Positions 10,435 to 63,068 of a DNA stretch of 64,000 nucleotides are shown here, piece by piece. The notes beneath the pieces were generated by a model. It was not told the origin of the DNA. It ran no database searches and saw only the letters and a program-made list of their open reading frames with translations. The position numbers and the translations under genes were made by a program. Origin of the DNA: an uncultured Bacteroides sp. Lineage in GTDB: Bacteria; Bacteroidota; Bacteroidia; Bacteroidales; Bacteroidaceae. Within the stretch, counting starts at the first letter, position 1, and every line of letters starts with the position of its first letter. The stretch spans positions 1 through 64,000 of the forward strand of contig USEY01000003.1 of assembly GCA_900553815.1 (NCBI GenBank), read 5' to 3'.

Positions 10435-10517
10435 AGCACCGGACTCCTCGCCGGCAAAGTCTTAACTGCTACCGCGCAAAGTATCCACTGCCCGCGTCCA
10501 AAGTCTTAAGACCTGCC
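10435..10517. repeat. AGT-ACT dyad array, 22-bp period (locus 1)
   Basis: Plus-strand dyads AGTCTTAACT (10458), AGTATCCACT (10480) and AGTCTTAAGACC (10502), with a degenerate unit at about 10436, fall exactly 22 bp apart. On the other strand this reads GCAGTTAAGACTT and GCAGTGGATACT, sharing a 14-mer (AGCAGTTAAGACTT) with the array at 36049. The rest of the gap 10062-10744 has no credible gene. Confidence 0.7.
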
Positions 10518-10744
10518 CCGAAGGACATGAAAAGACGGGAAAAAGGGAGTACTGGCGAGCTATTTTTTTCTGTAAAGATTCTGATAATCGACAATAGAAC
10601 AAGAAGATAGGCCTCACGGCATCGAAAAAACGGCGCGCAGGGCAACTGCTGACGGAAATAAGCGATTCTCAGCAATTGGGAAAAACAAATTGTCAAAACG
10701 TCAGGCACTGCCTTGCGCGCCGTATGTGCGAAATGGGTGTATAT

Positions 10745-12019
10745 TTACAGGCCCAGTTGTTTTCTGAGCCAGTCTTGCCACTCTTCCCACTGCTCCTGAT
10801 ACCAGTAGTGTCCGGTCTCCAGGTAGAGGTGAAGTTCTTTGGGTGCCGTCACCGCGTTGTAGGCGGCATACATGGAAGTGGGAGGACAAACTTCGTCGTT
10901 ATAACCCCAGCTGAACCATCCGGTAGCCTTCAGGCAGCGGGCAAAGTTGGCGGTGTCGTAATAGCGCAGGGCTTTCAGCTCCTTGTCTGTAGGTGCGGCC
11001 TGATAATAATAGTGGGGCCAGCCTCCGGCACGTTTCTTCAGAAAAGCCTCGTGGTCGCACAAGGCCGGATGGACGGCGCCGAAGAAGGTAACGCGCGAAT
11101 CGAGTGCAGCGGTAATCACCGACAACGCTCCGCCCTGGCTGGAGCCGGTCACGCCCAGTGCCTTGCCGTTGAATTGAGGCAGCGAGCAAATGAAGTCTAC
11201 AGCCCGCAGGGCACCCACGATGACACGGTTGTAGTAGTTCTGGTCTCGGTTGTCTCGGCAGAAATTCCAATATCCGTTCAAGGCACCGGCGGCCAGATTG
11301 TCATAGACAGACTGCTGCATGGTGACGGGAATACCGTGTATGCCCACTTCGAGCACAATCACCTTGCCCGGAGCCAGGTAGGTGTCGCCGCTGTAAGGCC
11401 GTACGCCGGCACCGGGCACACGGAGCAGTGCAGGATAAGTGCCCTCAGCCTTGGGTACGCTGAGGATGCCGAACATGCGGCCGCCCCATGCCTTGGTCTG
11501 AAAGCTGACTTCGTAGACGTTGGATGTCTCTGTGCAGCGTTCGGGCAGCAGGGTTATGGTGGGGTTCAGCGGGGTCTGGCGCGCATTGGCCAGTGTGGTT
11601 TCCCAGAATTTCAGGAAGTCGTCGGGCAGTTGGCTCACGGGGCGCAGCTCTTCGGGGGCATAGGCGGCAGTGGCCAGTCCTTCATAAGTCCGTCCGTCTA
11701 CGTGTGCCTTTACCTTGCAGCGCAGGAAGCCAGGCGTTTTCATCGTACCCTTCAGGGTCAGCTTTCCGTCCTTCAGCACCACGCCGGTCTTGGTTTCGGT
11801 GGGATACATCTCGGGGCCCAGTTCATAATCCACCGTCACACCGGACAGCAGATTCTGTGCCTTCAGCACCCTGACGGTGAAAGTACATTTCTCATTCAGA
11901 CCGTATTTCCAGTCTGCACGGTCGGGCGATACCATCACCCTGATTTCATTGCCGCGAATCTGTGCCGACACAAGCAACGTGCACAGCAGGCAAAAGAACA
12001 AAGACAATATCTTCTTCAT
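10745..12019 (-). CDS. CE7-family acetyl esterase (AXE1-like), secreted
   Basis: A 424-residue protein with a cleavable signal peptide (…LLVSAQ), an N-terminal beta-sandwich (about 22-120) and a C-terminal alpha/beta-hydrolase of the AXE1/cephalosporin-C deacetylase type. The catalytic triad is visible: Ser294 in GSSQGG, Asp375 in YNDEVCPP and His404 in ETGHYW. Family members remove O-acetyl groups from xylan- or mannan-derived oligosaccharides; next to the mannanase, deacetylation of mannan is the likely role. The gene starts 50 bp after the AraC gene on the same strand, so the two probably share a transcript. The extra N-terminal domain is common in Bacteroides members of this family. Confidence 0.88.
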   Translation of the reverse strand: MKKILSLFFCLLCTLLVSAQIRGNEIRVMVSPDRADWKYGLNEKCTFTVRVLKAQNLLSGVTVDYELGPEMYPTETKTGVVLKDGKLTLKGTMKTPGFLRCKVKAHVDGRTYEGLATAAYAPEELRPVSQLPDDFLKFWETTLANARQTPLNPTITLLPERCTETSNVYEVSFQTKAWGGRMFGILSVPKAEGTYPALLRVPGAGVRPYSGDTYLAPGKVIVLEVGIHGIPVTMQQSVYDNLAAGALNGYWNFCRDNRDQNYYNRVIVGALRAVDFICSLPQFNGKALGVTGSSQGGALSVITAALDSRVTFFGAVHPALCDHEAFLKKRAGGWPHYYYQAAPTDKELKALRYYDTANFARCLKATGWFSWGYNDEVCPPTSMYAAYNAVTAPKELHLYLETGHYWYQEQWEEWQDWLRKQLGL

Positions 12020-12069
12020 GGCTGATAAAATGTTTTTAGTTTCTCATAGCAATTTCCAAGAAACAGAGG

Positions 12070-12957
12070 TCAGATGACCTGCATCCGCTTGCGGTAACGC
12101 TCCCTGAACTCCTTGGGCGAACAGTTTTTCTTGCGCTTGAACATGCGGTTAAAGTTGGACAGATTGTTGAAACCGCAGTCGTAGCATATCTCGGCAATGG
12201 TGCAGCTGGAGTCAATCAGCAACCTGATGGCGTAGCCAAGCCTGATTTCCACAATGTAGTCGGACAAGGTTTTACCCGTGCGCAGTCTGAAGAAACGGCT
12301 GAAGGAGACGGGAGTCATGCCTACCATGTCGGCCAGCGTGTTCAGCCTGATTTCTTCCCGGTAGTGTTCGTTGATGTAGCGCTGTACTTTCTGTACGCGG
12401 CGGCTCTCCGAATAAACCTCCATCTTGGCAAACGATGAACTGGAGAGCGTGCGGGCGTCCTCACACAACGACAATTCGTAGAGTATGCGCATGAAATCCA
12501 TCACGGCATAGAAACCCTGTTCTTCCGAAGCCAGCTTATCCAGCAGGTTGTACACCTTCATAATGGCATGCACCGGGAAACAGAGACCGCACTGGGCGCG
12601 CTCCAACATACGGTGAATGCTGGCAAACTGGTTCTTCTTAATCCAATCACCGGCGACAAAATCCTGCCCGAACTGTATGGTAATCTCGCGAATGTTGGTA
12701 GAAGCACATTCGTTCTGCTCCCATACGTGCTCCAGGTCTTTACCGGTAATCAACACCAGGTCATAGTCGCCTATGATTTCGGAAGAGTCACCCACTATGC
12801 GCCTTACACCGGCCGCATGTTCCGTGAAGTTCAGCTCACACTCCGCATGACAGTGTATCGGATACGTGAACTCAGCCTTCCGGCGGTCGGCAATATAAAA
12901 GCAATCGCGCTCCGACAACGGAGTTATCTCACGCATAACAGAATTAGAATCTTTCAT
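12070..12957 (-). CDS. AraC-family transcriptional regulator of the glycan locus
   Basis: A 295-residue cytoplasmic regulator. The N-terminal half (about 1-170) is a cupin-like sensor (FTYPIHCHAECELNF, LVLITGKDLEHVW). The C-terminal 100 residues hold the double helix-turn-helix, with INEHYREEIRLNTLADMVGM and IAEICYDCGFNNLSNFNRMFKRK, the second being the typical AraC signature. It lies inside the carbohydrate locus between GH2 and CE7, which makes it the obvious candidate for sensing a released sugar and for binding the paired sites near the susC promoters. Its own promoter is probably at 12989-12996. Confidence 0.93.
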   Translation of the reverse strand: MKDSNSVMREITPLSERDCFYIADRRKAEFTYPIHCHAECELNFTEHAAGVRRIVGDSSEIIGDYDLVLITGKDLEHVWEQNECASTNIREITIQFGQDFVAGDWIKKNQFASIHRMLERAQCGLCFPVHAIMKVYNLLDKLASEEQGFYAVMDFMRILYELSLCEDARTLSSSSFAKMEVYSESRRVQKVQRYINEHYREEIRLNTLADMVGMTPVSFSRFFRLRTGKTLSDYIVEIRLGYAIRLLIDSSCTIAEICYDCGFNNLSNFNRMFKRKKNCSPKEFRERYRKRMQVI

Positions 12958-12988
12958 ATATTAAGAATAGAGTGAAAAAGTAGATAGG

Positions 12989-12996
12989 CAAAAGTA
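12989..12996 (-). promoter_or_regulatory. -7 box of the araC-type gene
   Basis: TACTTTTG on the minus strand, 32 bp before the start codon, fits the Bacteroides -7 consensus TAnnTTTG. A clear -33 box is not seen. Confidence 0.4.
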
Positions 12997-13037
12997 TGGA
13001 TTTTCCCGCCGTTGCAGGGAGAAAATTGAATACTTTT

Positions 13038-13062
13038 GGGGGAATATTCGGTATATTCCCCC
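13038..13062. terminator. Strong hairpin between GH2 and araC genes
   Basis: GGGGGAATA (13038-13046) pairs perfectly with TATTCCCCC (13054-13062) around a 7-base loop and is followed on the plus strand by five T. It lies 16 bp beyond the GH2 stop. The T-run is on the strand opposite to GH2 transcription, so its terminator function is uncertain. Confidence 0.45.
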
Positions 13063-13077
13063 TTTTTATACTGTTAT

Positions 13078-15522
13078 TTAGTCTTCCTTACAGCCGGTGT
13101 TGACCGTTATCGTGGCCGGACGGATGCCGTCGGCCGACTGTACGGTCAGCGTAGCCTGCCCGGCTTCACCGGTACTTTGCAGCAATACCTGGGCCAGTCC
13201 GTTGAAAGCCTTCAGACGGAAGGTACGGGCATTGGCATCAGTCGGACGTTCGGCCGCTTGCCAAGTAGGATTACCGTTGCCCACACCCAGAATGCGTACC
13301 GGACCGTCCACGGTCAGCAGCAACTCATTGCAGGCTGTAGGCACCATGCGCTTCTTCTTGTCTTGCAATTCCACACGAACAATGGCTACGTCGCGGTTAT
13401 CAGCCTTGATGGTGTCACGGTCGGCCGTCAAAGCAATGCGGTCAGTCGGTCCGGTAGTAGGAACTACGGTGGTCATCACCTTCTTGCCGTTCTTGTAGCC
13501 TACGGCCTTCAGCGTGCCGGGCTGGTAGATAGCCGTCCACGACAGATGGCCGTTGACAGGCATCGGCTTGCGCCCCATATCCTTGCCGTTGACATAGAGC
13601 TGCACTTCGTCGCAGTTGCTATAGGCCCAGATGTCTACCGTCTCGCCTTCGTGGCCTTGCAGGTTCCAGTGGGGCAAGAGATGGAGCACGGGCTCGTCGG
13701 TCCACCAGGATTTCAGGTAGTAAGCCTCATCCTTGGGGAATCCGCAGTAGTCGAGCACACCAAACTGCGAACCGGTGGCGGGAAACTTCATCGGATTGGG
13801 CTCGCCACGGTAGTCGAAGCCGGTCCAGTAAAACACACCAGCCAGGTAAGGACGTTCGGCATAGAACTTCCAGCCGCGCTCTATGGCATTCAGCAGGCTG
13901 TCGGGACCATTGGGCTGGCGGTTGAGGGCTTTCATGTAGCCGGCTTCCAGGTCATCATAATAGATGCCGCGCGCACCGCAGCCCGTGGTTTCTTCCGAAC
14001 CGAAAGCCTTGCGGTCGGGATAGTCGCGGCGATGTTTCTCTACCGGGTTCTGAAGGATATAGTTATAGCCGGCCACATCGAGCGGAATCAGGATAGCCGG
14101 TCCGCTGCTCGAAGCGGCGGTCATGGGGCGTGTAGGATCTATGCGATGGCAATACTGGCGCATGGTAGCGGCAATGCGAGTACCGGTTTCTTTCCATTCG
14201 GTTCCCCACTCCTCGTTGCCCACGCTCCAAAGGATGACACTGGGATGGTTGCGGTCGCGCACTATCATGCGTTGCAGCAAGTCAATGTGTTCCCGGTTGA
14301 TACCTGTCAGGCGGTTTTCGGCTACGACAAGAATACCCTCACGGTCGCAAGCGTCCAGCATTTCGGGCGTCATAGGATTGTGCGAGGCGCGGTAGGCATT
14401 GCATCCCATCCATTTCAGTTGCTTCAGGCGATAGAGCTGCAAGGCATCGGGAATGGCCGAACCTACACCGGCATGATCCTGGTGCATGTTGGCGCCTTTC
14501 AGCTTCAGCGGCTGTCCGTTCAGGAAGAAGCCCCGGTCGGCATCGAAGGCTATGTGGCGGATACCGGTGGTAGTAAAATAGGTGTCTACCAATTGCTGCC
14601 CGGCATAGACCTCGGTCTTCACCTTATATAAATAGGGAGAGTCGGTGCTCCACAAATGAGGATTGGACACGTGCATGCGGCCGGTAGTGCAGTGTGGCTT
14701 GCGAGGCAACAGATCACCACCCTCTACCCGGCACTCGGCCACTTCCTGTCCATCGGCATCTATCAGCACATGCTTCAGGCTGTAAGCGGCAGTCTCCAGA
14801 CCAGCATTCTCCACCGTAGTTTCCACCACTACCTCTGCCTCATTGAAGGGTGCCTCCAGCTGGCTGTAGACAAACGTGCCAAACGGAGCCACATGCAGCG
14901 GTGCGGCCTTGCAAAGCCAAACATGGCGGTAGATGCCGGCACCCTCGTAGAACCAGCCTTCTTCCAGCGTGGCGTCTACGCGGACGGTCAGCAGGTTCTG
15001 CCCGCCGTAGTTCAGATAGTCGGATATTTCATATACTTGCGTGGCATAGCCGCTGGGTTCATGGCCCAGGTAGAAACCGTTCAGCCAGACACGGGCATCG
15101 CGGAAGATGCCGTCGAACTGCAGATAGAGGTACTTGCCCAGGTCTTCCTGCGGCACGGTAAAGGTCTTCCGATACCAGCCTACACTGGTCTCGGGATATT
15201 TATAGCCCACCTGCTTGTAGCCATGGCTATGGCTGGCCAGCGAGTCGAAAGGCAGGTCTACCACCCAGTCGTGGGGCAAATCGACACGCTTCCACGACGA
15301 AGCGTCGAACTTATCCGAATAAGGGCCTGCATTGTGAATCGAAGCGGCTTTGGTCAGGTAGTTGAAGTATTCCGTACCACAACCAAAGTCTTTTTCGGGC
15401 GAAGATGCGTTACCGAAGGCAAACCGCCAATCCTCGTCCATCAGAATCCGTTCGCGGAGCGATTGTGCCTGAAAAGGCAAGGCTGCGCCCAAGAACCAAA
15501 GGAGAGCGAAAAGGTATTTCAT
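13078..15522 (-). CDS. GH2 family glycosidase (beta-galactosidase/beta-mannosidase type)
   Basis: An 814-residue exported enzyme. After the signal peptide (…LPFQAQ) come the sugar-binding jelly roll (about 25-205, with PHDW and GIFRDARVWLNG), an Ig-like domain (210-320), the TIM barrel (325-620) and C-terminal Ig/DUF4982-like domains. Acid/base Glu437 lies in WSVGNEEW; the nucleophile is probably Glu510 in AFGSEET. GH2 members of this layout remove terminal beta-linked sugars. Beta-galactosidase is the commonest activity, but beta-mannosidase cannot be excluded and would suit the mannanase context. It is separated from GH3 by 240 bp on the same strand. Confidence 0.9.
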   Translation of the reverse strand: MKYLFALLWFLGAALPFQAQSLRERILMDEDWRFAFGNASSPEKDFGCGTEYFNYLTKAASIHNAGPYSDKFDASSWKRVDLPHDWVVDLPFDSLASHSHGYKQVGYKYPETSVGWYRKTFTVPQEDLGKYLYLQFDGIFRDARVWLNGFYLGHEPSGYATQVYEISDYLNYGGQNLLTVRVDATLEEGWFYEGAGIYRHVWLCKAAPLHVAPFGTFVYSQLEAPFNEAEVVVETTVENAGLETAAYSLKHVLIDADGQEVAECRVEGGDLLPRKPHCTTGRMHVSNPHLWSTDSPYLYKVKTEVYAGQQLVDTYFTTTGIRHIAFDADRGFFLNGQPLKLKGANMHQDHAGVGSAIPDALQLYRLKQLKWMGCNAYRASHNPMTPEMLDACDREGILVVAENRLTGINREHIDLLQRMIVRDRNHPSVILWSVGNEEWGTEWKETGTRIAATMRQYCHRIDPTRPMTAASSSGPAILIPLDVAGYNYILQNPVEKHRRDYPDRKAFGSEETTGCGARGIYYDDLEAGYMKALNRQPNGPDSLLNAIERGWKFYAERPYLAGVFYWTGFDYRGEPNPMKFPATGSQFGVLDYCGFPKDEAYYLKSWWTDEPVLHLLPHWNLQGHEGETVDIWAYSNCDEVQLYVNGKDMGRKPMPVNGHLSWTAIYQPGTLKAVGYKNGKKVMTTVVPTTGPTDRIALTADRDTIKADNRDVAIVRVELQDKKKRMVPTACNELLLTVDGPVRILGVGNGNPTWQAAERPTDANARTFRLKAFNGLAQVLLQSTGEAGQATLTVQSADGIRPATITVNTGCKED

Positions 15523-15690
15523 AAATCCGGTATAAAGGTTTCTATGGATTGATATAATATTATCCGTCTACATGACAAGAGACGAAAGAAAAGTTGTCAG
15601 ACTATACCCCACATTAGTGCGATATGAACAAGACAGTTAACACGATACGAACAGATACGTATCATGCCACACACTCAAGGAAACATCGCT

Positions 15691-15732
15691 ACAGGGAATA
15701 CGCCTCCCTGTTCCGGTCTTTTCAGACCGGAA
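15691..15732. repeat. Two adjacent hairpins downstream of GH3
   Basis: ACAGGGA/TCCCTGT (15691-15711) is followed at once by TTCCGGTC/GACCGGAA (15711-15732), 30 bp beyond the GH3 stop. No T-run follows on the minus strand. They may slow transcription or protect the 3' end, but the role is not shown. Confidence 0.45.
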
Positions 15733-15761
15733 TCAGGAAGCGTTCCGATGGGTTCCATCGC

Positions 15762-18062: not shown

Positions 18063-18146
18063 AGCGAAGTATTTAAATTATATATTAAAAAGGTATGCCC
18101 GAAGTTTTTTAGCCTGCTATACAAACCTGCTAAAACTTTTCTGTTG

Positions 18147-21900: not shown

Positions 21901-22698
21901 TTACCCCATACTTCCTCCCCCGCCTTCTTCTTCACCGCCGCCCGAAGGCACATCGGGCGCCACGCCCACATAGACGGGCCACTCCACCGAGCGCGGCTCC
22001 TTCAGCAAGGCGCTGCCGCCGCGGCTGAACTGCGTCGTGACGCGCAGCGTGTACGTACCGTCGGCCAGTCCGGCGGGAATGGTGAAGCTGAGCTTCTTGG
22101 GCTCGTTCACCGCCCAGTAGTCTTCGGTGACGCGCGTCTCCTGTCCTTCGCTGTCCACCAGGAAGATGCCCACCTCCGGGTCGGTGCCCGCCACCTTCAG
22201 GTAGTTGCCCGTCACGGTGAACGGACGTCCGGCCGTAGCCTCGCCCGCGGTGCCGCGCGTAGCGGCGTCCTGCGTGCCGGCAATGTACATCACCTCCGCC
22301 TTCGGCCCCAGCACGTTGATGTTCGTATTTCGTATGGCCTCGCGCCAGTCGGCTCCCTGGGCTATGGTGATGTCGAGGGTGTTGACCGCGGGGTCCCATG
22401 CGCTGCCGCCCCGTCCTTTGGGCGAGGCCACGGCCGAGAAGAGTCCGTTGCTGACGCGCATGCCGTTCAGCGTCAGCCGCTTGATGACCCTATGTTCGAA
22501 GCGGATGACGGCCTCCACCGTCTCGCGCTCCAGGCCGGGGTTCAGCGCCATGATTTCCGATACTACGCGGTCGAAGTCGGCCGTGCCGTTGCTCACCAGC
22601 ACGAAGCGGGTGTCCTTGGGGTCTTCGGTCAGCGGATTGTCTACGGTCTGTACATTCAGTGTGTACTTGATGTCATCGTTTGCCATAAATACTTTCAT
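21901..22698 (-). CDS. HU-HIG DNA-binding protein with Ig-like DUF4469 domain and Gly-rich tail
   Basis: A 265-residue protein. Residues about 8-120 match the HU-related fold of Bacteroidetes 'HU-HIG' proteins (HU fused to wHTH, Ig or glycine-rich motif). Residues about 125-245 resemble the Ig-like DUF4469 (RPFTVTGNYLKV, GIFLVDSEG, LADGTYTLRVTTQFS). It ends in a Pro/Glu/Gly stretch and GGGGSMG. The second HU-like protein of the window (56548-57048) ends in the same seven residues. Function is unknown; DNA binding is inferred from the fold. Start may be Met1 or Met5. The gene is preceded by a 175-bp tandem array that appears to lie in its mRNA leader. Confidence 0.8.
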   Translation of the reverse strand: MKVFMANDDIKYTLNVQTVDNPLTEDPKDTRFVLVSNGTADFDRVVSEIMALNPGLERETVEAVIRFEHRVIKRLTLNGMRVSNGLFSAVASPKGRGGSAWDPAVNTLDITIAQGADWREAIRNTNINVLGPKAEVMYIAGTQDAATRGTAGEATAGRPFTVTGNYLKVAGTDPEVGIFLVDSEGQETRVTEDYWAVNEPKKLSFTIPAGLADGTYTLRVTTQFSRGGSALLKEPRSVEWPVYVGVAPDVPSGGGEEEGGGGSMG

Positions 22699-22725
22699 TT
22701 AAAGGTTATACATATTGTTTATTCG

Positions 22726-22900
22726 CGTGCGTGACGCGCACCTTACCACGTGCGTGACGCGCACCTTACCGCGTGCGTGGCGCGCACCTTACCACGTGCG
22801 TGACGCGCACCTTACCACGTGCGTGACGCGCACCTTACCGAGTGCGTGATGCGCACCTTACCGCGTGCGTGGCGCGCACCTTACCGCGTGCGTGGCGCGC
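22726..22900. repeat. Tandem array of a 23-bp hairpin-forming unit in the leader of the HU-HIG gene
   Basis: Eight units (the last partial) start at 22726, 22749, 22772, 22795, 22818, 22841, 22864 and 22887, each 23 bp. Every unit keeps the dyad GTGCG/CGCAC around a 5-base loop whose bases vary (TGACG, TGGCG, TGATG), followed by a CTTACC linker. There are no spacers, so this is not CRISPR. The array ends 27 bp from the start codon of the HU-HIG gene. Confidence 0.95.
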
Positions 22901-22907
22901 TATGAGG

Positions 22908-22915
22908 CAAAGATA
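22908..22915 (-). promoter_or_regulatory. -7 box of the HU-HIG gene, directly before the tandem array
   Basis: TATCTTTG on the minus strand matches the Bacteroides -7 consensus exactly. Transcription would begin at about 22900, the first base of the array, giving a leader of about 200 nt made mostly of repeated hairpins. No convincing -33 box is seen. Confidence 0.5.
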
Positions 22916-29860: not shown

Positions 29861-29949
29861 GTTTCCACTGGACAGGAACAGGAGTTTCAGTCCGAAGAAA
29901 CTTTTGTTCCCAACCGGAGAAACTGTAGTTTCAGTGGACTGAAACAAAA
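29861..29949. repeat. GTTTC-GAAAC dyad array, 22-23-bp period
   Basis: Four units start at 29861, 29884, 29906 and 29928 (spacing 23, 22, 22). Each is a dyad of the form GTTnC…GnAAC: GTTTCCACTGGACAGGAAC, GTTTCAGTCCGAAGAAAC, GTTCCCAACCGGAGAAAC and the perfect GTTTCAGTGGACTGAAAC. It sits in the 503-bp gap between hutU and the PepSY-like gene, which otherwise holds a terminator and no gene. Confidence 0.75.
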
Positions 29950-30010
29950 AAAAGACTCCGAACGCAAACGCTTTCCTCCAAAGAGGTGGATCGTTCACGG
30001 TCGGAGTTTT
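29946..30010 (-). terminator. Terminator of the PepSY-like gene
   Basis: ACTCCGA (29955-29961) pairs with TCGGAGT (30001-30007). On the minus strand the stem is followed by an eight-T run, and on the plus strand by TTTTTATT, so it could work in both directions. It lies about 50 bp beyond the stop at 30058. Confidence 0.7.
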
Positions 30011-36024: not shown

Positions 36025-36048
36025 CCACAGTCTATTTCCATCGGATTA

Positions 36049-36130
36049 GCAGTTAAGACTTATCGTGCTGGCAGTGGACTACTATCGCGCTGCGAGTACA
36101 CTGCTTGGTCGATAGCAGTTAACTGCTATC
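36049..36130. repeat. AGT-ACT dyad array, 22-bp period (locus 2)
   Basis: AGTTAAGACT (36051), AGTGGACT (36073), AGTACACT (36095) and AGTTAACT (36117) are spaced exactly 22 bp. It begins 25 bp after the tadA stop. Same family as the arrays at 10435 and 62959. Confidence 0.8.
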
Positions 36131-36317
36131 AAGACAAATTCCTACACCCATATTCGATTCACAAGTATCCTTGTCTTTATCTGCCTGCCATAACGCACTC
36201 AGGCAAGATAATATCCATCTTTACGATTACCAAGTACCTCTTTAGCCGGCTCAAATCCATCTTTAAGAACGCAAACCAGGTATCTGTCTCCTGCAAAATT
36301 TCTTTTTCCGTGATGAA

Positions 36318-45864: not shown

Positions 45865-45910
45865 CAGGAAAAGTCAGGCTCTGATAGAGTAAAAGCACCA
45901 ATACATCCGG

Positions 45911-46080
45911 GCTAAAGTGCCACCTCAATATAGCTAAGGTGCCACCCTTGCATAGCTAAAGTACGGCTTTTCTCCATATTATAAGCCTTATATCCAATTG
46001 TTAAAAGCCTTATAGTATATGTCTATAAGCCTTTTAATACTACGTTAAAAGCCTTATATATTTTATGAATAAGCCTTTTA
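45911..46080. repeat. Two successive 22-bp-period arrays
   Basis: GCTAA[A/G]GTGCCACC-type units start at 45911, 45933 and 45955 (22 bp apart). They are followed by AAGCCTT units with the G at 45985, 46007, 46029, 46051 and 46073, again exactly 22 bp apart. The flanks alternate between TTAAAAGCCTTAT and TATAAGCCTTTTA. The array lies between two pseudogenes. Confidence 0.75.
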
Positions 46081-46202
46081 TTATAAGCTAAGATACGACT
46101 TTAGGAGCCCTAAGGTGGGGAGATAGCCTGCATCATCCGGCACTTCAGGTAAGAACAACCGCCGATAAAGCCCTAAAAAACATAGAATAAATCTGTAAAG
46201 AC

Positions 46203-46590
46203 ATGAAACAGAAACATATCCTACTGCTGGCCTATACCATGGCCGCAACCAGCCTCGGGCTGCACGCATAAGACAGCCCGCTGCTCAACGACTATCGCAC
46301 TTTGGTAGAAACCTACAGCCCCGATCTGCGGGCAGCCCAGCATGCCGCCGGTGCCGGCCAGGAAGCACGCCAGTCGGCACACGCCGACTTCCTGCCCAAG
46401 CTATCGGGTGGTGCCAACTTCAACTATACCGGCAATCCGCTCCGGCTCGATGTCAACCTGCCCGGCACCGACGCTGCCTACACCTTTGAAAGTCGCGACA
46501 CGAAATACGGTGCCTCGCTCAACCTGTCGCAACCCCTCTATACCGGCGGAGCACTGCGTGCCGGATATGACAAGGCACGCGCCGAGGAGG
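46203..46590 (+). pseudogene. TolC-type outer-membrane efflux protein, N-terminal remnant
   Basis: From ATG 46203 a signal peptide is read (MKQKHILLLAYTMAATSLGLHA), then TAA (46269-46271) where CAA is expected. Past the stop the frame continues as the first roughly 110 residues of a TolC protein (LVETYSPDLRAAQHAAGAGQEARQ, FLPKLSGGANFNYTG, LNLSQPLYTGGALRAGYDKAR). It then passes in frame into a response-regulator sequence near 46575-46600. The remaining three quarters of TolC are gone. Confidence 0.88.
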
Positions 46591-47249
46591 CCATGCAATG
46601 GTTTGCCGGGCATCCGCACCCCGACATCCTGTTTCTCGACATACAGCTCACCGACGGTCTGTCGTTCTACTTCATCGAGCAGGCCCGGCCCGAGAGCATG
46701 ATTGTCTTTACCACGGCCTACGACGAGTATGCCGTCCGTGCCTTCAGGGTGAACAGCATCGACTACCTGCTGAAACCCATCCACCGCGAACGGCTGGCCG
46801 ACGCCATACAGAAGTTTGAACGGCTGACGGCTCCCCGCATACACGAACTGAACAGCCGGCTCGACATGCAGGAACTGATTCAGGCACTTGCCGACCGCAA
46901 CACGCGCCGCTACCGCACGCGCTTCCTCATCAGCGGCCCGCGCAGCCTCTATACGCTGAACGTGGACGAGGTGTGCTACTTCTATTCGGAAGAAAAGATA
47001 ACCTTTGCCGTGACGACCGACCGCCGTACGCACATCATCGACCTCCCGTTGGCCAAGCTCGAAGAACAGCTTGACCCGTAGCAGTTCTTCCGCGTCAACA
47101 GGCAGTACATCCTCTCGGCGCCCTGCATACGCGACATTGAGCCCTACTTCAACGGCAAGGTCGTTGTACACGTAGTTCCCGCAACCGACAGCCCCATACA
47201 GGTGAGCCGCGAAAAGGCGGCCGCACTGAAAATGTGGCTGAATTACTGA
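46591..47249 (+). pseudogene. LytTR-type response regulator, N-terminally deleted, joined to TolC remnant
   Basis: Starting at about EEAMQWFAGHPHPD the sequence is a receiver domain lacking its first roughly 40 residues, including the acidic pair. It keeps the phospho-acceptor region ILFLDIQLTDG, then TTAYDEYAVRAFRVNSIDYLLKPI and a LytTR DNA-binding domain (RTRFLISG…YTLNVDEVCYFYSEEKITF). A TAG at 47079-47081 interrupts LEEQLDP*QFFRVNRQYIL, where CAG would be expected. It ends MWLNY at 47249. The usual partner, a membrane histidine kinase, is missing. Confidence 0.88.
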
Positions 47250-56477: not shown

Positions 56478-56480
56478 GAA

Positions 56481-56510
56481 AAGGGAAATGCTACAGGCAG
56501 CATCTCCCTT
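56481..56510. terminator. Hairpin between convergent MATE and HU-like genes
   Basis: AAGGGA plus ATGCT (56481-56492) pairs with AGCAT plus TCCCTT (56499-56510) around a short loop, with one or two unpaired bases. It lies in the 70-bp gap between the two stops. Confidence 0.6.
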
Positions 56511-56547
56511 CCTTAAGCCGTATGTCATCATCAGGGTGTCAAAAGGC

Positions 56548-57048
56548 TCATCCCATCGAGCCACCGCCACCCGGTTCTTCGGGTTCGGTAGTGGTGCCGC
56601 CGGTGATGCCTTTGGCGCGCTTATAGTCGGCCAGCGAGGCGTAATTGACGTTGCCGTCCAGAACGCCGCCATTCTCAAATTGCAGGTTGTTAATCACTGC
56701 CTCGCGAAACTCCTTGCTCGGTGTAAAGAGGATGCGGGCACCCTTAATCATGGTCTGCGGATTGTACTGAGTGATGTCCTCCACGCCCTCGCTCTGTATG
56801 GTGATGCGCAGTGTACCCAAGTCGCCCACCTTTACCGAATGTCCTTGCAGCAACTGCTGGCGGGCATAGTTGCCCAGCAGTTCCAAGGCAGCTTCCAGTT
56901 CCTTGGGCGCTAAGGTCGTATTCTCCGTGGCAACGCGGGTCATGACTTTAACAGATTGCGGGGATGCACTCAGTGGAGTGGCATACCATTTTTTCGGAGC
57001 ATCGGGATTGCCGGGATGCTTCCGTTTTACTAATTTATATTTGTACAT
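56548..57048 (-). CDS. HU-HIG DNA-binding protein with glycine-rich tail
   Basis: A 166-residue histone-like protein: the HU-related fold spans about residues 1-120 (KLVKRKHPGNPDAPKKWYATP, ELEAALELLGNYARQQLLQGHSVKVGDLGTLRITI, YNPQTMIKGARILFTPSKEFREAV), followed by a linker and GGTTTEPEEPGGGGSMG. This is the common single-domain Bacteroides type. The terminal GGGGSMG is identical to that of the Ig-domain paralogue at 21901-22698. About 190 bp upstream of its start begins a 23-bp tandem array. DNA binding is inferred; targets are unknown. Confidence 0.9.
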   Translation of the reverse strand: MYKYKLVKRKHPGNPDAPKKWYATPLSASPQSVKVMTRVATENTTLAPKELEAALELLGNYARQQLLQGHSVKVGDLGTLRITIQSEGVEDITQYNPQTMIKGARILFTPSKEFREAVINNLQFENGGVLDGNVNYASLADYKRAKGITGGTTTEPEEPGGGGSMG

Positions 57049-57185
57049 AGTTTTTCATTTTTTTAGAGTTTAACAATAAAGGTAATATAATGTTACATAC
57101 GGCCTTTTCAGTCAAGCAGCAGCCTAAAGTAGGTCAGCAGAAATCAAGCTACATCAGACAGACAAACGGGCAGAAGCAGCAGAGC

Positions 57186-57196
57186 GGGAGCAAACG
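57186..57196. repeat. GGGAGCAAACG word, copy 1
   Basis: The 11-mer occurs here and as an inverted pair at 58721-58731 and 58765-58775, around the promoter of the second outer-membrane paralogue. Three copies within 1.6 kb are unlikely by chance; the role is unknown. Confidence 0.5.
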
Positions 57197-57240
57197 TACT
57201 CAAAATCAGAAACTAATCCTGAAAAGCAAGGCTATAAAAC

Positions 57241-57378
57241 TGACATTGAGATAAGGGCTGAAATGACTTCCCAATGTCACCCCCGATGACTTCCCAATGT
57301 CACCCTCGATGACTTCCCAATGTCATGGCCGATGACTTCCCAATGTCAGTGCAGGTGACTTCCCGATGTCATTTCGGG
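57241..57378. repeat. TGACTTCCCAATGTCA tandem array, exact 23-bp period
   Basis: Units begin with TGAC at 57241 (degenerate), 57264, 57287, 57310, 57333 and 57356, each 23 bp apart. The dyad TGAC…GTCA encloses TTCCCAAT; the 7-base linkers differ between units. It lies in the 760-bp gap 57049-57808, which has no other gene, and upstream of the HU-like gene. Confidence 0.92.
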
Positions 57379-57747
57379 CCTCTTCACGATGCTGCTGATG
57401 CTGGCTTTAGGTGATAAAAAATTCATAGTCCGAAATGTCTGAAAAGAGAATCTTCCTATATATATAATGTATAGTATCAGAAATAAGTAACAGTGATTAC
57501 GAATCAAAGGCAATATACAGTATAGGAAATCAAACAGCTAAAATCAGTGGAAGAAACAGCGCAGACTCTCTCTAATCATCCATGCCAAAAGTAAGAAATT
57601 AAATCCATAAATACAATATTCAGCTGTTTATTTTTTTAGGTATCCGGACAACGGCTGCCGTGTGTAAGAAATGGTGCAGATTGAGGTATCAATCTGAAAG
57701 AAAGAAAGAAAAAACAGGAAGAAAGAGAAAGAAATAAAAGGGAAGGT

Positions 57748-57778
57748 TTTGAAACTTCATGAACACCCTATATATTTG
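57748..57778 (+). promoter_or_regulatory. Promoter of the first outer-membrane paralogue
   Basis: TTTG (57748-57751), exactly 19 bp, then TATATTTG (57771-57778). This is a perfect Bacteroides promoter and it excludes in-frame starts before about 57785. Confidence 0.8.
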
Positions 57779-57808
57779 CAGGAAATGAAAAATCAATATA
57801 GACAGATT

Positions 57809-58675
57809 ATGAAAAATACGCTGATTTGTTTGCTGTTAGGCTTATGTAGTGTCGTGCAGGCGATACAGGCTAAGGATGTGAGGGGGAAAGTGATTGCCCA
57901 ATCGGACAAACAACCGATAGTGGGAGCCGAGGTCAAGGTGAAGGGAACAGAAATTACGACACTGACCGATGTGGATGGACAGTTCGTATTGACCGATGTG
58001 CCCGACGATGCCAAGAAAATCCAGATACACTTTATGGGTATGGAGTGGCGTACGGTAAGCATTTCTAAGGAGGGTGAAATCTTTGTAGAGCTACAACCGG
58101 AGGAACGCCGGACTACTCTCTTCATAACGGCAGGAATCACCTGTGCCAACCCGAAGAGCACCGATGAAGGCTTTGCCAAAGCCAGTGGCGAGATAGGCTA
58201 TCAGGCCGGTTTTGGAGTCAGTATCGCCTTGTCGCGCCTGATTTCGCTGTCGCCCTCCATTAATCTGAGCCGACAAAACGCCACGTGGAAAGCACGCGAT
58301 GAGAACGGTGAATATGTGGAGATGAAAATGACACCTACTTACCTGACTATCCCGGTAATGGTGGACTTCAAGTTATGGGGCAGCAACAACTTCAAGACGA
58401 TGATGAGGGTAGGACCATACGTAGGAGTGGGCCTGCAAGGAAAGTGTAAGACAGATGATATGGAAGTGGACCTCTTCAAAAAGATAGAAGGTGCCGATAA
58501 GAGCCTATATAAGAAAGTAGATGCCGGACTGATACTGGGCGTAGGCTTTGTTTACAAGCATCTGTTCCTTGGAGCAGACCTGCAATGGGCGGCCACACCG
58601 TTCTATACGGATGAGCAGCGTGATGTCGACCTTAACAATCTTGCGACCGTCATTTCGCTAGGCTATTATTTCTAA
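57809..58675 (+). CDS. Outer-membrane beta-barrel protein with carboxypeptidase-regulatory-like domain (paralogue 1)
   Basis: From ATG 57809, which opens a signal peptide (MKNTLICLLLGLCSVVQAIQA), the protein has 288 residues. An N-terminal carboxypeptidase-regulatory-like fold (GKVIAQSDKQPIVGAEVKVKGTEITTLTDVDGQFVL) precedes an eight- to ten-strand porin-type barrel ending in ATVISLGYYF. No TonB box or plug is present, so it is not a SusC. An in-frame ATG at 57785 is possible. The next gene is a clear paralogue. Function is unknown; such proteins may be adhesins or surface anchors. Confidence 0.8.
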   Translation: MKNTLICLLLGLCSVVQAIQAKDVRGKVIAQSDKQPIVGAEVKVKGTEITTLTDVDGQFVLTDVPDDAKKIQIHFMGMEWRTVSISKEGEIFVELQPEERRTTLFITAGITCANPKSTDEGFAKASGEIGYQAGFGVSIALSRLISLSPSINLSRQNATWKARDENGEYVEMKMTPTYLTIPVMVDFKLWGSNNFKTMMRVGPYVGVGLQGKCKTDDMEVDLFKKIEGADKSLYKKVDAGLILGVGFVYKHLFLGADLQWAATPFYTDEQRDVDLNNLATVISLGYYF

Positions 58676-58754
58676 AAGGCTGATAATGGCCTTACCTGGC
58701 AAAATTCTGTACACAAAGGTGGGAGCAAACGTAGAAAAAAATGAATACACAGGC

Positions 58755-58785
58755 TTTGATTCTTCGTTTGCTCCCGCTATATTTG
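58755..58785 (+). promoter_or_regulatory. Promoter of the second outer-membrane paralogue
   Basis: TTTG (58755-58758), 19 bp, then TATATTTG (58778-58785), the same boxes and spacing as at 57748. GGGAGCAAACG (58721-58731) and its inverse (58765-58775) bracket the -33 box. Confidence 0.8.
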
Positions 58786-58817
58786 TAGCAATTTACACCT
58801 TAAAAAAGAAGAAAGAC

Positions 58818-59699
58818 ATGAGAAGATGGTTTATTTTGCTGGCAGCATCCTTATTATTCACTAACCTGACGATGCTGGCCAAAGACGTGAAAGGAACAGT
58901 GATTGCCCAGAAAGACGGTCAGCCCGTCATGGGAGCTGAAGTGATTGTGAAAGGAACGGAAATCAGTACGGTGACCGACGTGGACGGCCGATTCATACTG
59001 GAGGATGTGCCCGACGATGCCAAGAAGATACAAATCATCTCCATCGGCCTGCAAAGCCGCACTGAAAGGATTCCCGAAGAGGGCGAACTGCTGGTGAAGA
59101 TGAAACGGGAGGAAAAGGTGGTGACACCGTTTGTCAAAGCGGGCGTGGCCTTCACGAGAGCGCAAGGCGGCGAGAGCAGTGCCACCAAAACTTGTGTGGG
59201 ATATACCGCCGGAGTAGGTGTCAGCTTTGTACTGTCGCACTTCATATCCATCACACCGTCGGTCACGCTGAGCCAGAAGCCGTCGGAATGGAACGAGCAG
59301 GGCTACTTCCCCGGCACCAACGAACCTATCTATGGCGAAGAAATGAACGTCCGCACCGAACCGCTCTACCTGACCGTACCAGTCATGTTCGACCTGAAGC
59401 TCTGGACTAAAAACAGCAACAAGGTAATCATCAGCGCAGGCCCGTATGTGGGCTTCGGTCTGGGCGGCCAGTGGAAGGTCAACGACGAGGAAGGCGGCGA
59501 CCTCTTTACCGGAAATGACGGTGAAGAAGCGCCGTTCAAGAAATTCGACGCCGGCCTGCAACTGGGAATAGGCGGCATCATCAGACACTTCTACATAGGC
59601 GTGAACAGCATAATGGGATTGACTCCAATCAGCGATGTCGGCCTGCTGGACGATTACCGTAACTTCAGCGTGGAGATGTGCGTTGGCTACTACTTCTAA
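58818..59699 (+). CDS. Outer-membrane beta-barrel protein with carboxypeptidase-regulatory-like domain (paralogue 2)
   Basis: The ATG at 58818 gives 293 residues with a signal peptide (MRRWFILLAASLLFTNLTMLA). It parallels its neighbour along the whole length: GTVIAQKDGQPVMGAEVIVKGTEISTVTDVDGRFIL, DVPDDAKKIQI, a barrel, and the last strand VEMCVGYYF. The pair probably arose by tandem duplication, each keeping its own promoter. It ends 17 bp before the AraC-type regulator, so read-through into the copper genes is possible. Confidence 0.8.
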   Translation: MRRWFILLAASLLFTNLTMLAKDVKGTVIAQKDGQPVMGAEVIVKGTEISTVTDVDGRFILEDVPDDAKKIQIISIGLQSRTERIPEEGELLVKMKREEKVVTPFVKAGVAFTRAQGGESSATKTCVGYTAGVGVSFVLSHFISITPSVTLSQKPSEWNEQGYFPGTNEPIYGEEMNVRTEPLYLTVPVMFDLKLWTKNSNKVIISAGPYVGFGLGGQWKVNDEEGGDLFTGNDGEEAPFKKFDAGLQLGIGGIIRHFYIGVNSIMGLTPISDVGLLDDYRNFSVEMCVGYYF

Positions 59700-59716
59700 G
59701 TAAACGCAGACAAGAC

Positions 59717-60289
59717 ATGAAGCCCTCGCAAATACTCTACATCAAAAACATGGTGTGCAACCGCTGCATCATGGTAGTCAGGGCCCAGCTCTTGGCGCTG
59801 GGCCTGCACCCGCTGTCGGTAGAACTGGGACGCGTGGAACTGGCCGAGGCGGTGGACGACTCGCTGATGCAGTCCATACGCCAGACGCTTGAGCCGCTGG
59901 GCTTCGAACTGATTGACGACCGCCGCTCGCTCCTGACCGAGCAAATCAAGGCGGCGGTCATCGAACTGGTGCACTACAGCGACCAGCAGCCCAAGACCAA
60001 CCTGTCCGACTACCTGGCCACACGCCTCAACCATGACTACAGTGCCCTGAGCAAACTCTTCTCGGAGACCACGGGCACCACCATCGAGAAATACCTCATT
60101 GCCCAAAAGACGGAGCGCGCCAAAGAACTGCTGATTTACGGCGAGCTGTCCATCGGCCAGATAGCCGACCTGCTGAACTACTCCAGCACCGCCTACTTCA
60201 GCTCGCAGTTCAAGAGCCAGACCGGACTGACGCCCGGCCAGTTCCGCCAGTTGCGTGAGAACCGGCGCAAGCCACTGGACCAAGTCTGA
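59717..60289 (+). CDS. AraC-type regulator with HMA-like metal-binding N-terminus
   Basis: A 191-residue protein starting at ATG 59717. The C-terminal 100 residues are an AraC helix-turn-helix (NLSDYLATRLNHDYSALSKLFSE; LSIGQIADLLNYSSTAYFSSQFKSQTGLTPGQFR). The N-terminal roughly 75 residues look like a heavy-metal-associated fold: MVCNRC (Cys14, Cys17) in the place of MxCxxC, then the beta-alpha-beta-beta-alpha-beta pattern to GFELIDD. The usual cupin sensor is absent. It lies 97 bp before the copper ATPase gene on the same strand, so it probably senses the metal and controls that gene. The HMA reading is from pattern only. Confidence 0.78.
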   Translation: MKPSQILYIKNMVCNRCIMVVRAQLLALGLHPLSVELGRVELAEAVDDSLMQSIRQTLEPLGFELIDDRRSLLTEQIKAAVIELVHYSDQQPKTNLSDYLATRLNHDYSALSKLFSETTGTTIEKYLIAQKTERAKELLIYGELSIGQIADLLNYSSTAYFSSQFKSQTGLTPGQFRQLRENRRKPLDQV

Positions 60290-60342
60290 AATCTTGTAAA
60301 TACTATCCATAATTCCATAATCCCGTAACCGGTCGGCCTGCC

Positions 60343-60350
60343 TATCTTTG
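60343..60350 (+). promoter_or_regulatory. -7 box of the copper ATPase gene
   Basis: TATCTTTG followed by CCC, exact -7 consensus, 36 bp before the ATG at 60387. This separates the ATPase from the regulator transcript and gives the regulator a target site in 60290-60342. Confidence 0.55.
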
Positions 60351-60386
60351 CCCGCAGAAAGGAATAATCAAAAGCGAACTAAAGAT

Positions 60387-62933
60387 ATGGCAAACAAACA
60401 ACTGACCCAAGAAACCTTTCCTGTGACGGGAATGAGCTGTGCAGCCTGCGCCGCACACGTGGATAAGACGCTGAACCGACAGGAGGGCGTGGCCCACGCC
60501 GCCGTCAACTATGCCGCAGCCACCGCCACCATCGAATACGACCGGAGCCTTTGCTCTCCCCAGTCGCTGCGCCAGGCCGTGCAGGACGCCGGCTACGACC
60601 TCATCATCACCCACACCGGACACGAAAGCGAAGAAGTGGAGGAAACTCACCGCCGCACGTACCGCGCACTGCGTTTCCGCACCACGTGGGCCATTGTGCT
60701 GTCGCTGCCGGTAATGGTGACGGGCATGTTCTTCATGCACCAGCCCTGGGCCAATCCGCTGATGTTTCTGCTGTCTACCCCGGTGGTGTTCTGGCTGGGG
60801 CGCGGCTTCTTCATCAACGCCTGGAAGCAGCTGAAGCACCGCTCGGCCAACATGGATACGCTGGTGGCAGGCAGTACGGGCATAGCCTGGCTGTTCAGTG
60901 TCTTCAACATGGCGTTTCCCGACTTCTGGCTGGAGCGGGGCATCGAGCCGCATGTCTACTTCGAGGCTGCCAGCGTCATCATTGCCTTCATCCTGCTGGG
61001 ACGACTGCTGGAGGAGCGCGCCAAGGGACGCACGTCAAACGCCATCAGGAAGCTGATGGGACTTCAGCCCAAGACCGTGACCCTTGTGATCGGCGATGAA
61101 CAGCGCACAGTGCCGGTGGAACACGTCAGCCCGGGCGACCTGCTGCTGGTAAAGCCCGGCGAACGGATTGCCGTAGACGGTACCGTGGTGCAAGGCACCT
61201 CCTACGTGGACGAAAGCAGCCTGAGCGGCGAGCCCGTGCCCGTGGCCAAAGAACCTGATGCCCAAGTCTATGCCGGCACCATCAACCAGAAAGGAAGTTT
61301 CCTGTTTCGTGCCGACAAGGTAGGTACGGACACCCTGCTGGCGCGCATCATACGCATGGTGCAAGACGCGCAAGGCACGAAAGCGCCTGTCCAACAGCTG
61401 GTAGACAGGATTGCCGCCGTCTTCGTGCCGACCATCATGGGCATTGCCGTGCTGGCGTTCATTGCCTGGATGATACTTGATGCCGAGAATGGATTCACCC
61501 ACGGGCTGCTGGCACTGGTGACGGTGCTCATCATTGCCTGCCCGTGTGCTTTGGGACTGGCCACGCCCACTGCCATCATGGTGGGCATAGGCAAAGGAGC
61601 CGAACTGGGCATCCTGATTAAAGACGCCGACAGCCTGGAAACGGCGCGCAAGGTAGACACCGTGGTGCTGGACAAGACCGGCACCGTGACCGAAGGCCGT
61701 CCGGTAGTGACGCACCTGATATGGGAAGACCCGTCCGCACTGTTGCCCGGCATCTTCCTCGGTCTGGAAAGTCTGTCCGAGCATCCTCTGGCCGAAGCCA
61801 TAACGCAACACCTGAAGGGAACGCAACCGGCCTCTGTGGAGGGCTTCGAAAGCATCACCGGACAAGGGGTGAAGGGCACCGTGCAGGGACGCACCTACTA
61901 TGCCGGCAACCGCCGCCTGCTAGAAGAACGCCACATCGCCCTGTCGCCCAGGCTGGAGGCAGAAGCCGCCCGTCTGGCCGGCGAAGCACAGACCGTCATC
62001 TGGCTGGCCGACGACAGCCGTGCCCTGGCACTGGCCGCACTGGCCGACCGGGTGAAACCCACTTCGGCAGCAGCCATCCGTAACTTGCGCCAGCAGGGCA
62101 TCGACGTGTGGCTGCTGACCGGCGACAATGAAGATACCGCCCGGCAGATAGCCAGACAAGGAGGCATCGACCACTTCCGCGCCGGCGTGCTGCCACAGGA
62201 CAAGGCAAGCTTCATAAAATCGCTCCAGCAGCAGGGACACATCGTGGCTATGGCGGGCGACGGCATCAACGACAGTGCCGCCCTGGCACAGGCCGACCTG
62301 AGCATAGCCATGGGAAGCGGCAGCGACATAGCCATGGACGTGGCCAACATAACCCTCATGGCATCCGACCTGAACAAAATTCCCGAAGCCCTGCGCCTCT
62401 CGCACCTCACCGTACGCACCATCCGCCAGAACCTGTTCTGGGCATTCATATACAACCTGATAGGCGTGCCCGTAGCAGCCGGCGTCCTCTACCCCGTGTG
62501 GGGCTTCCTGCTCAACCCCATGATTGGCGGGGCAGCGATGGCATTCAGCAGCGTCAGCGTGGTGACAAACAGTTTACGACTGGCGAGTAAAAAAATTCGA
62601 TTGACAGCGGACAAGGGAGAAGAAACGACAAATGGAGAATTGACAACTGTTGACGAAAAACCAGCTACAATAGAAGAAACACCCATAACAACCCTTAACG
62701 ATAAACAAGAAATGAAGAATGAAATGAAACTGACAGTCAGCGGCATGATGTGCAACCACTGCCGCACACGAGTAGAAAAAGCACTAAACATGCTGGATGG
62801 CGTGCAGGCCAGCGTAAGCCTCAACCCGCCCCTGGCCGTGATAACCTTTACAGGCGAAAAAGACTACAGTCTGGAAGAACTACAGACACAAGTGAACGAA
62901 GTAGCGGGCGAGTATACCCTACAGGAAGCATAA
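60387..62933 (+). CDS. copA: Copper-exporting P-type ATPase with N- and C-terminal HMA domains
   Basis: An 848-residue P1B ATPase. N-terminal HMA domain with GMSCAAC (Cys18, Cys21); membrane helices; TGES-type actuator (SSLSGEPVPV); CPC in IACPCALG (Cys385, Cys387), which is the copper-type site; phosphorylated Asp429 in DKTGT; GDGINDS near the end of the soluble part. After the last helices a Thr/Glu-rich linker (about 745-775) leads to a second HMA domain (MKLTVSGMMCNHC, from about residue 780), as in CopZ chaperones. ATG 60387 is chosen; an upstream TTG overlaps the -7 box. Confidence 0.93.
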   Translation: MANKQLTQETFPVTGMSCAACAAHVDKTLNRQEGVAHAAVNYAAATATIEYDRSLCSPQSLRQAVQDAGYDLIITHTGHESEEVEETHRRTYRALRFRTTWAIVLSLPVMVTGMFFMHQPWANPLMFLLSTPVVFWLGRGFFINAWKQLKHRSANMDTLVAGSTGIAWLFSVFNMAFPDFWLERGIEPHVYFEAASVIIAFILLGRLLEERAKGRTSNAIRKLMGLQPKTVTLVIGDEQRTVPVEHVSPGDLLLVKPGERIAVDGTVVQGTSYVDESSLSGEPVPVAKEPDAQVYAGTINQKGSFLFRADKVGTDTLLARIIRMVQDAQGTKAPVQQLVDRIAAVFVPTIMGIAVLAFIAWMILDAENGFTHGLLALVTVLIIACPCALGLATPTAIMVGIGKGAELGILIKDADSLETARKVDTVVLDKTGTVTEGRPVVTHLIWEDPSALLPGIFLGLESLSEHPLAEAITQHLKGTQPASVEGFESITGQGVKGTVQGRTYYAGNRRLLEERHIALSPRLEAEAARLAGEAQTVIWLADDSRALALAALADRVKPTSAAAIRNLRQQGIDVWLLTGDNEDTARQIARQGGIDHFRAGVLPQDKASFIKSLQQQGHIVAMAGDGINDSAALAQADLSIAMGSGSDIAMDVANITLMASDLNKIPEALRLSHLTVRTIRQNLFWAFIYNLIGVPVAAGVLYPVWGFLLNPMIGGAAMAFSSVSVVTNSLRLASKKIRLTADKGEETTNGELTTVDEKPATIEETPITTLNDKQEMKNEMKLTVSGMMCNHCRTRVEKALNMLDGVQASVSLNPPLAVITFTGEKDYSLEELQTQVNEVAGEYTLQEA

Positions 62934-62958
62934 GGAAGCAAAACGCACCTTATTGATA

Positions 62959-63068
62959 GCAGTGGACTCCCCGCATGCTGGCAGTTAACTCCCAGCACGG
63001 TAGCAGTTAACTCCTTGGTCGGTAGCAGTCCACTGCCAGCACGACAGGAGTTAACTCTTTCCGCACTC
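62959..63068. repeat. AGT-ACT dyad array, 22-bp period (locus 3)
   Basis: Five units GCAGTGGACT, GCAGTTAACT, GCAGTTAACT, GCAGTCCACT and GGAGTTAACT start at 62959, 62981, 63003, 63025 and 63047, exactly 22 bp apart. The array begins 25 bp after the copA stop. The rest of the 304-bp gap carries only the pyrH promoter. Confidence 0.9.

Follow-up and report, generated by a model that had tools for sequence, protein, structure and literature searches.

Rows of short, imperfect inverted repeats recur every 22-23 bp in the intergenic DNA of the stretch analysed here (64,000 nucleotides of contig USEY01000003.1 of an uncultured Bacteroides sp., hereafter the window), and their arms belong to several unrelated sequences. 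The question raised by this locus is what could read a single format written in so many sequences. The window is chromosomal, Bacteroides/Phocaeicola-like DNA; among the 201 genomes scored out of 399 searched, the closest is G155, with 81% identity across 3.9 kb of a 5.4-kb query. An earlier note had placed the rows at seven intergenic positions (10.4, 22.7, 29.9, 36.1, 45.9, 57.2 and 63.0 kb), and scanning the window for self-identity at lags 12-40 (27 or more matches per 45 bp) bore this out: six peaks were obtained at lag 22 and five at lag 23, coinciding with exactly those seven places, and the other 27 lags gave nine in total, scattered. In the 30 intergenic blocks of at least 60 bp (9,487 bp together), 14 matches at lags 22/23 were found, in seven of the blocks, and none at lags 15-21 and 24-30. 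Two hundred dinucleotide shuffles of the blocks produced a mean of 0.02 matches and a maximum of 1, and the 54 kb of genic sequence gave no match at lag 22 and one at lag 23.

Table 1. Arrays, promoter-like box and HU-type genes in the window (dyad p from permutation of unit columns)
Feature	Position	Strand	Period (bp)	Units	Description	Dyad p
Array	10447..10520		22	~3	AAAGTCTTAACTGC type, core near AGTNNACT; lag-22 peak	0.09
HU-superfamily gene	21901..22698	-			HU-DNA_bdg + DUF4469 (Ig-like), Pfam; directly downstream of array B	
Array B	22724..22900		23	7.7	arms GTGCG...CGCAC	0.36
TATCTTTG box	22908..22915	-			ends 7 bp before array B	
Array	29864..29951		22	~4	around TTTCAGT/ACTGAAA	0.001
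Array	36048..36133		22	~4	GCAGTNNACTGC type	0.0005
Array (45.9a)	45899..45965		22	~3	GCTAAAGTGCCACC type	0.12
Array (46.0 kb)	45979..46100		22	5.5	TTAAAAGCCTTATA palindrome + ~8 variable bases	0.03
HU-HIG gene	56548..57048	-			Pfam PF18291, HU/IHF fold; array F ends 214 bp before its start	
Array F	57263..57377		23	5	TGACTTCCCAATGTCA + variable linker; unit written out, ATGACTTCCCAATGTCA + six linker bases; upstream of HU-HIG gene	0.04
Array	62957..63068		22	5	GCAG(TTAA/TGGA/TCCA)CT + variable linker; gap before pyrH	0.001

Some details of the original description had to be adjusted (Table 1). The step of 22-23 bp holds overall, with period 23 at 22.7 and 57.2 kb only and period 22 at all other arrays. 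One of the seven places, that at 45.9 kb, holds two side-by-side arrays of differing sequence. The arrays at 10.4, 36.1 and 63.0 kb are alike by eye, with a common core close to AGTNNACT, so that about six unrelated arm types can be distinguished. The claim that every unit is a dyad stood at p<0.05 in five of the eight arrays tested singly, but not in those at 10.4 and 22.7 kb nor in 45.9a; the unit at 22.7 kb is GC-rich, and its arms are legible by eye despite the p value. Array B sits between the start of the HU-type gene and the promoter-like TATCTTTG, which we take to be a Bacteroides-type -7 box. Beside the 46.0-kb array an outer-membrane efflux frame (46203-47081) looks interrupted near its start, and the ORF downstream of it also matches response-regulator and LytTR domains; this region may therefore be rearranged or frameshifted.

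The same lags stand out in relatives, sampled over 200-400 kb each (segment score of at least 12, segments of period 11 or less dropped). Intergenic lag-22 segments numbered 25 in G155, 11 in G014, 6 in G183, 5 in G453 (Parabacteroides gordonii) and 3 in G416 (Bacteroides fragilis S82), and the other lags from 13 to 40 gave 0-2 segments in these five array-rich samples. Inside called genes the lag-22 counts were 5, 1, 0, 0 and 0 for G155, G014, G183, G453 and G416, and at least one of the five genic segments of G155 reflects a miscalled ORF, the array directly upstream of its HU-HIG gene having been counted as genic. No lag-22 segment was found in Proteiniphilum, strain F22 and E. coli, and one each in Dysgonomonas and Labilibaculum; the samples from Bacteroides, Phocaeicola-like bacteria and Parabacteroides thus show a clear excess, which is weak or absent in these last five. 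Among 80 Bacteroidales pyrH loci (1.3 Mb) there were 26 intergenic segments at lag 22, 11 at lag 21 and 0-3 at each other lag. Lags 14, 21 and 28 are swollen by 7-bp tandem repeats, and as lag 21 is partly affected the counts given here are restricted to lags 22-23 unless stated. These 7-bp repeats (AATGAAG, ATTAACC and others) form a separate class in or near intergenic DNA, seen at L097, L100 (G155 sample) and L228-L231. The array class is real and lineage-specific. Both the autocorrelation excess at lags 22-23 and its intergenic bias, on which the earlier note had staked its case, are present in the window and in the samples of relatives, and there is good support for the general class that it proposed, in which dyad units at a fixed spacing have unrelated arms.

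Symmetry of the units follows the period. In the array-rich samples the dyad test gave p<0.05 in 41 of 68 intergenic arrays at lag 22, 6 of 8 at lag 23 and 5 of 12 at lag 21, and in 2 of 14 at other lags. Conservation along the dyad axis, averaged over 39 arrays of about three or more units each (several from one family and hence not all independent), was 0.65 at the axis, rose to 0.82-0.90 at the third to fifth pair out, with its peak of 0.90 at the fifth, and fell to 0.51 in the linker; permuting the columns left a near-flat profile, from 0.76 to 0.68. Two half-sites about one turn apart are thus kept, the axis and the linker are freer, and the period is fixed. Such a two-fold symmetric footprint fits a dimer and marks the units as predicted binding sites. 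The suggestion that all dyads lie on nearly the same face of the DNA is right only approximately: with 10.5 bp per turn, a step of 22 bp rotates the next unit by 34 degrees and one of 23 bp by 69 degrees, and with 11 bp per turn the rotation is 0 and 33 degrees, respectively.

Placement of the arrays was analysed for 54 of them lying between called genes, one further array, inside a gene or cut off, being excluded. Codirectional gaps held 28, divergent gaps 12 and convergent gaps 14, the last representing 11% of the intergenic room. In a hand count, 23 of the 28 codirectional arrays were nearer to the 3' end of the upstream gene than to the downstream start. Many arrays adjoin unrelated genes, such as those of TonB receptors, RRF, MscS and SurE/ParA. 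The gap upstream of pyrH holds arrays of unrelated sequence in L001, L014, L024, L046 and the window, and no positional conservation is claimed; at L231:2225-2298 a lag-22 array of near identical units (GTTAACACGGTTCACGAACGGA, with a GTTC/GAAC dyad) lies just after the pyrH match. Turnover can be followed in few species pairs, of which L007/L008 and L123/L125 were inspected. Bacteroides clarus (L008) carries an array some 118 bp long at a place where B. propionicigenes (L007), at about 85% identity, has little over one unit, so that related species can differ through growth or loss of an array. One sequence pattern of G155 is present there in 213 exact copies and absent from seven other genomes. 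The CGCGAG family is unevenly spread on contig C1 of G155, with two loci below 0.9 Mb and the others at 0.9-2.2 Mb among the places listed.

A candidate reader was suggested by the genes adjacent to the arrays. Both period-23 arrays of the window lie directly upstream of HU-superfamily genes, and the protein encoded at 56548-57048 belongs to the HU fold. The other gene, with its HU-DNA_bdg and DUF4469 domains, is rare; among 251 genomes of the family, one has a match at E<=1e-40. No close relative of the two proteins was found among viral contigs, the seven HU-HIG matches in phage records were all weak and partial, and the HU-HIG profile matched no solved structure by sequence. In the G155, G453 and G416 samples, two of four HU-HIG genes had an upstream array (one at about 500 bp) and two had none. 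As these adjacencies had prompted the idea, the association was tested on genes that had not. In this first clean set (60 loci of six genomes; arrays at lag 22/23, score 12) an array was present in the upstream gap of 20 of 62 HU-HIG genes, compared with 18 of 247 others from the same loci. With P. gordonii and the prompting genes added, and an array counted if 20-350 bp upstream, the figures were 30/108 HU-type (107 HU-HIG plus the HU-DNA_bdg gene of the window) versus 29/365 other genes (Fisher 4e-7; 2e-6 without the window). Two HU-type genes contained in the 365-gene control set were taken out for a later comparison stratified by genome, which gave 30/108 versus 45/541 (p 1e-8), and a gap-matched comparison gave 19/50 versus 41/460. 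The HU-HIG rate was higher in each of the seven genomes, from 8/42 in G453 to 5/12 in G155, and no clear enrichment was observed upstream of HU genes at lags 18-21 and 24-27. The array/HU-HIG association is solid, and HU-HIG, the partner family first guessed, proved to be statistically associated with the arrays. The HU genes were taken among the matches listed in the seven genomes, above 45 bits and stop-free, with three left out (one each in G183, G014 and G453), and genes were called with a simple codon-usage caller whose starts may be off.

At this threshold 78 of the 108 HU-type genes lack an array; arrays precede 14 of 28 genes for HU-HIG proteins of at least 175 aa and 16 of 80 for shorter ones, and some of the long proteins have a C-terminal extension, taken for the putative winged helix of the family name. 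The distance from array end to gene start is 27-214 bp, with a median of 88 (32 arrays). Of 30 HU genes, 13 have a TAnnTTTG box that ends no more than 30 bp ahead of the array, whereas 10% of randomly anchored 70-bp windows contain such a box; some arrays fall between promoter and start codon. Units are related where their HU-HIG proteins are (30 genes, r 0.32, Mantel p 0.0002), although common descent alone may account for this relatedness and for the palindromes shared by orthologs. The number of HU-HIG genes per genome is 8-54 in the five array-rich samples and 2-5 in four array-poor ones, a difference confounded by clade. G459 (Prevotellaceae) has 14 HU-HIG genes, its arrays having been sampled in one 20-kb locus only.

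A prediction was then made for 15 HU-HIG places of four taxa that had not contributed to the HU sample: Phocaeicola massiliensis, Bacteroides finegoldii, Parabacteroides distasonis and Bacteroides sp. CACC 737. Before any locus was opened, a rate of 30-50% was predicted, compared with about 8%. Annotated starts were used where given. A lag-22 array was found at 8 of the 15 HU-HIG genes versus 2 of 20 neighbouring genes (p 0.008); these two genes are divergent from a HU gene and have their upstream gap in common with it. By taxon, 5 of 7 genes were positive in B. finegoldii, 2 of 5 in P. massiliensis, 1 of 2 in P. distasonis and 0 of 1 in CACC 737; four further HU genes of the 15 carry period-21 arrays, for example TTGCCGACGGTGTCGGCAGTA. 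Several 'plasmid' records of B. finegoldii and P. distasonis (L341, L342, L344, L346) look like misfiled chromosome fragments, carrying topA and argS, rpsU and raiA, recA and clpB, or topoisomerase IV and coaD.

Arrays dispersed elsewhere in the genome share their palindrome with a HU-HIG promoter in some cases. The AACATCCGGATGTT palindrome occurs at four loci in B. fragilis S82 and at four in G183, each set including a HU-HIG promoter; it is also found in G197, G038, G169, G061 and G295 (1-14 copies) and is absent from 13 of 20 genomes. At L160:2023-2526, in B. fragilis S82, a AACATCCGGATGTT array lies between divergent genes for SurE and a ParA-family ATPase. The GGGCYCATGRGCCC palindrome occupies eight loci in G416, among them another HU-HIG promoter, and one in G197, and is absent from the other 18 of 20 genomes. 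For one period-21 array of G155, a single HU promoter of that genome gave a score of 39 and none of the 107 other HU promoters exceeded 13; G014 and G183 offer one clear pair each of a dispersed array and a HU-HIG promoter. When 41 arrays were compared with 123 HU upstream regions, two proved to be HU promoters themselves and five others exceeded their shuffles by at least 16: L002 (B. fragilis) with a HU promoter of the same genome, L005 with B. fragilis and G183, L022 (P. faecalis) with P. massiliensis, L061 with P. gordonii, and the 46.0-kb array of the window, which resembles arrays at HU-HIG promoters of G431 and G005.

For most arrays, however, this link is missing. A HU promoter of the same genome outscored all those of other genomes by at least 5 for only 5 of 74 non-HU arrays, and the reverse occurred for 12 of the 74 (3 by at least 8), at low scores and with many more other-genome promoters compared. 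Four of the eight window arrays matched no sampled HU promoter, and the 63.0-kb array was barely above its own shuffles. For the two largest dispersed families seen (CGCGAG in G155, AAACAATATTGTTT in G014), no copy was found in the 600 bp upstream of the HU-HIG genes examined (12 in G155, 4 in G014); in G014 a HU-HIG gene has one array at 642 bp upstream. Dispersed arrays also lie near 3' ends, unlike operators. Either the unlinked families belong to a HU-HIG gene whose own promoter has no array, or to one outside the sample, or another protein reads them.

The best-supported reading is that the arrays are probably rows of sites for dimeric HU-HIG-type proteins, of which Bacteroidales have many paralogs; each paralog would have a palindrome of its own. 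One unit would be one dyad, its half-sites about one helical turn apart, and with units placed every two turns (21-23 bp) neighbouring dimers would lie on roughly the same side of the DNA and could act together. We infer that a paralog binds the palindrome beside its own promoter and thereby controls itself, and that further copies scattered in intergenic DNA may shape the nucleoid or insulate transcription units. More tentatively, and with somewhat less than even confidence, the whole could be a many-language, sequence-addressed chromosome system, in which tens of HU-HIG paralogs per genome, as bending dimers, would address private palindromes, control themselves through promoter arrays and mark intergenic arrays, the palindromes turning over between species while the format stays fixed.

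The footprint would serve equally well for some other dimeric protein, an as yet undescribed nucleoid protein or several regulators, of which HU-HIG promoters are merely a frequent target. The large dispersed families lacking a HU-HIG promoter copy in the sample and the many arrays beside unrelated genes are consistent with such a protein. We nevertheless regard it as unlikely, since the HU-HIG paralogs of one genome differ in palindrome while related proteins have related ones, and since the sole DNA-binding regulator in the scanned 20 of 29 array-preceded control genes (one of them without a Pfam match) was itself a HU-HIG gene.

Two further explanations are less likely still. Units forming hairpins could expand by slippage or ride MITE-like elements and be tolerated between genes only, as selfish or neutral minisatellites, a history that suits the gain and growth seen between L007 and L008, the species-specific families such as that with 213 copies in G155, and the repeats of P. 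gingivalis considered below. Slippage leaves unexplained, however, why half-sites are kept while linker and axis vary, why the period is 22 and why HU-HIG promoters are enriched, and this explanation appears quite improbable. Alternatively, the arrays might act in transcripts as rows of small hairpins (3' stabilisers, terminators or 5' leader elements), to which the 3' bias of the dispersed arrays and the position of some between promoter and start codon would correspond. Against this, arrays lie in divergent gaps too, no Rfam family reached its gathering score in the window, and arm mismatches on the sense strand were G.T versus A.C in 23 versus 24 cases in codirectional and 18 versus 24 in convergent gaps, with few compensatory stem cells (4 in codirectional gaps). 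Given the lack of wobble bias and the few compensatory changes on that strand, the symmetry seems to reside in double-stranded DNA and not in RNA; the RNA hairpin element was rejected as a candidate, and any RNA role seems very improbable.

If the HU-HIG reading is true, it would provide a large orphan HU-HIG expansion of dominant gut bacteria with a DNA ligand and a sequence-based way of finding its targets, and natural protein/site pairs would become available for working out a recognition rule. A conspicuous share of the intergenic DNA of Bacteroides would also be explained, of which no account was found in the literature searched (partial coverage, few subscription papers).

Several known systems share traits with the arrays. 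A CRISPR array has repeats of 23-47 nt, spacers of similar length and cas genes; this assignment was rejected, as the whole unit here is 21-23 bp and its variable part about 6-10 bp. Iterons typically lie at a single origin, as direct repeats that serve one Rep protein. Iteron and operator arrays resemble the present ones in having repeated sites about two helical turns apart, a cooperatively binding protein (binding being predicted here) and the protein's own gene as a target; they were rejected because 213 copies of one family lie at many places of G155, beside unrelated genes, and many dyad families extend over the chromosome. The REP/BIME elements of enterobacteria are intergenic, palindromic, species-specific families of many copies, biased to the 3' sides of genes, and the arrays share all these traits; they differ in being single tandem dyads at 21-23 bp, in the several unrelated families per genome and in their enrichment at HU-HIG promoters. 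A REP/RAYT origin was rejected on one genome, G155, whose two Y1_Tnp (RAYT-like) genes are not flanked by its units.

Closer in lineage is the BrickBuilt MITE of P. gingivalis, which the available text describes as containing intergenic 23-nt tandem repeats, mentioning also 22-nt repeats of strain W83, and as one element with leader, tail and IS5-type terminal inverted repeats, found in P. gingivalis and P. gulae (PMC4596501). The arrays resemble it, as far as that text goes, as intergenic tandem repeats of similar length in a Bacteroidales species, but no conserved leader or tail is apparent around them when the flanks are viewed by eye.

The preferred reading finally invites comparison with HU/IHF, as proteins of the HU fold act on DNA architecture. 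HU is usually regarded as packaging DNA in general, with weak specificity, and a survey of its superfamily from 2017 reportedly treats the Bacteroidetes expansions; no HU-HIG protein with private palindromic arrays was found in the literature searched. In P. gingivalis the HU protein PG0121, highly similar to that of E. coli, affects a capsule locus with a 77-bp inverted repeat, its binding being called 'non-discriminatory' in a section heading of the available text (PMC3969353). Unlike PG0121 as characterised in that heading, the HU-HIG proteins considered here would each recognise a predicted palindromic array of their own.
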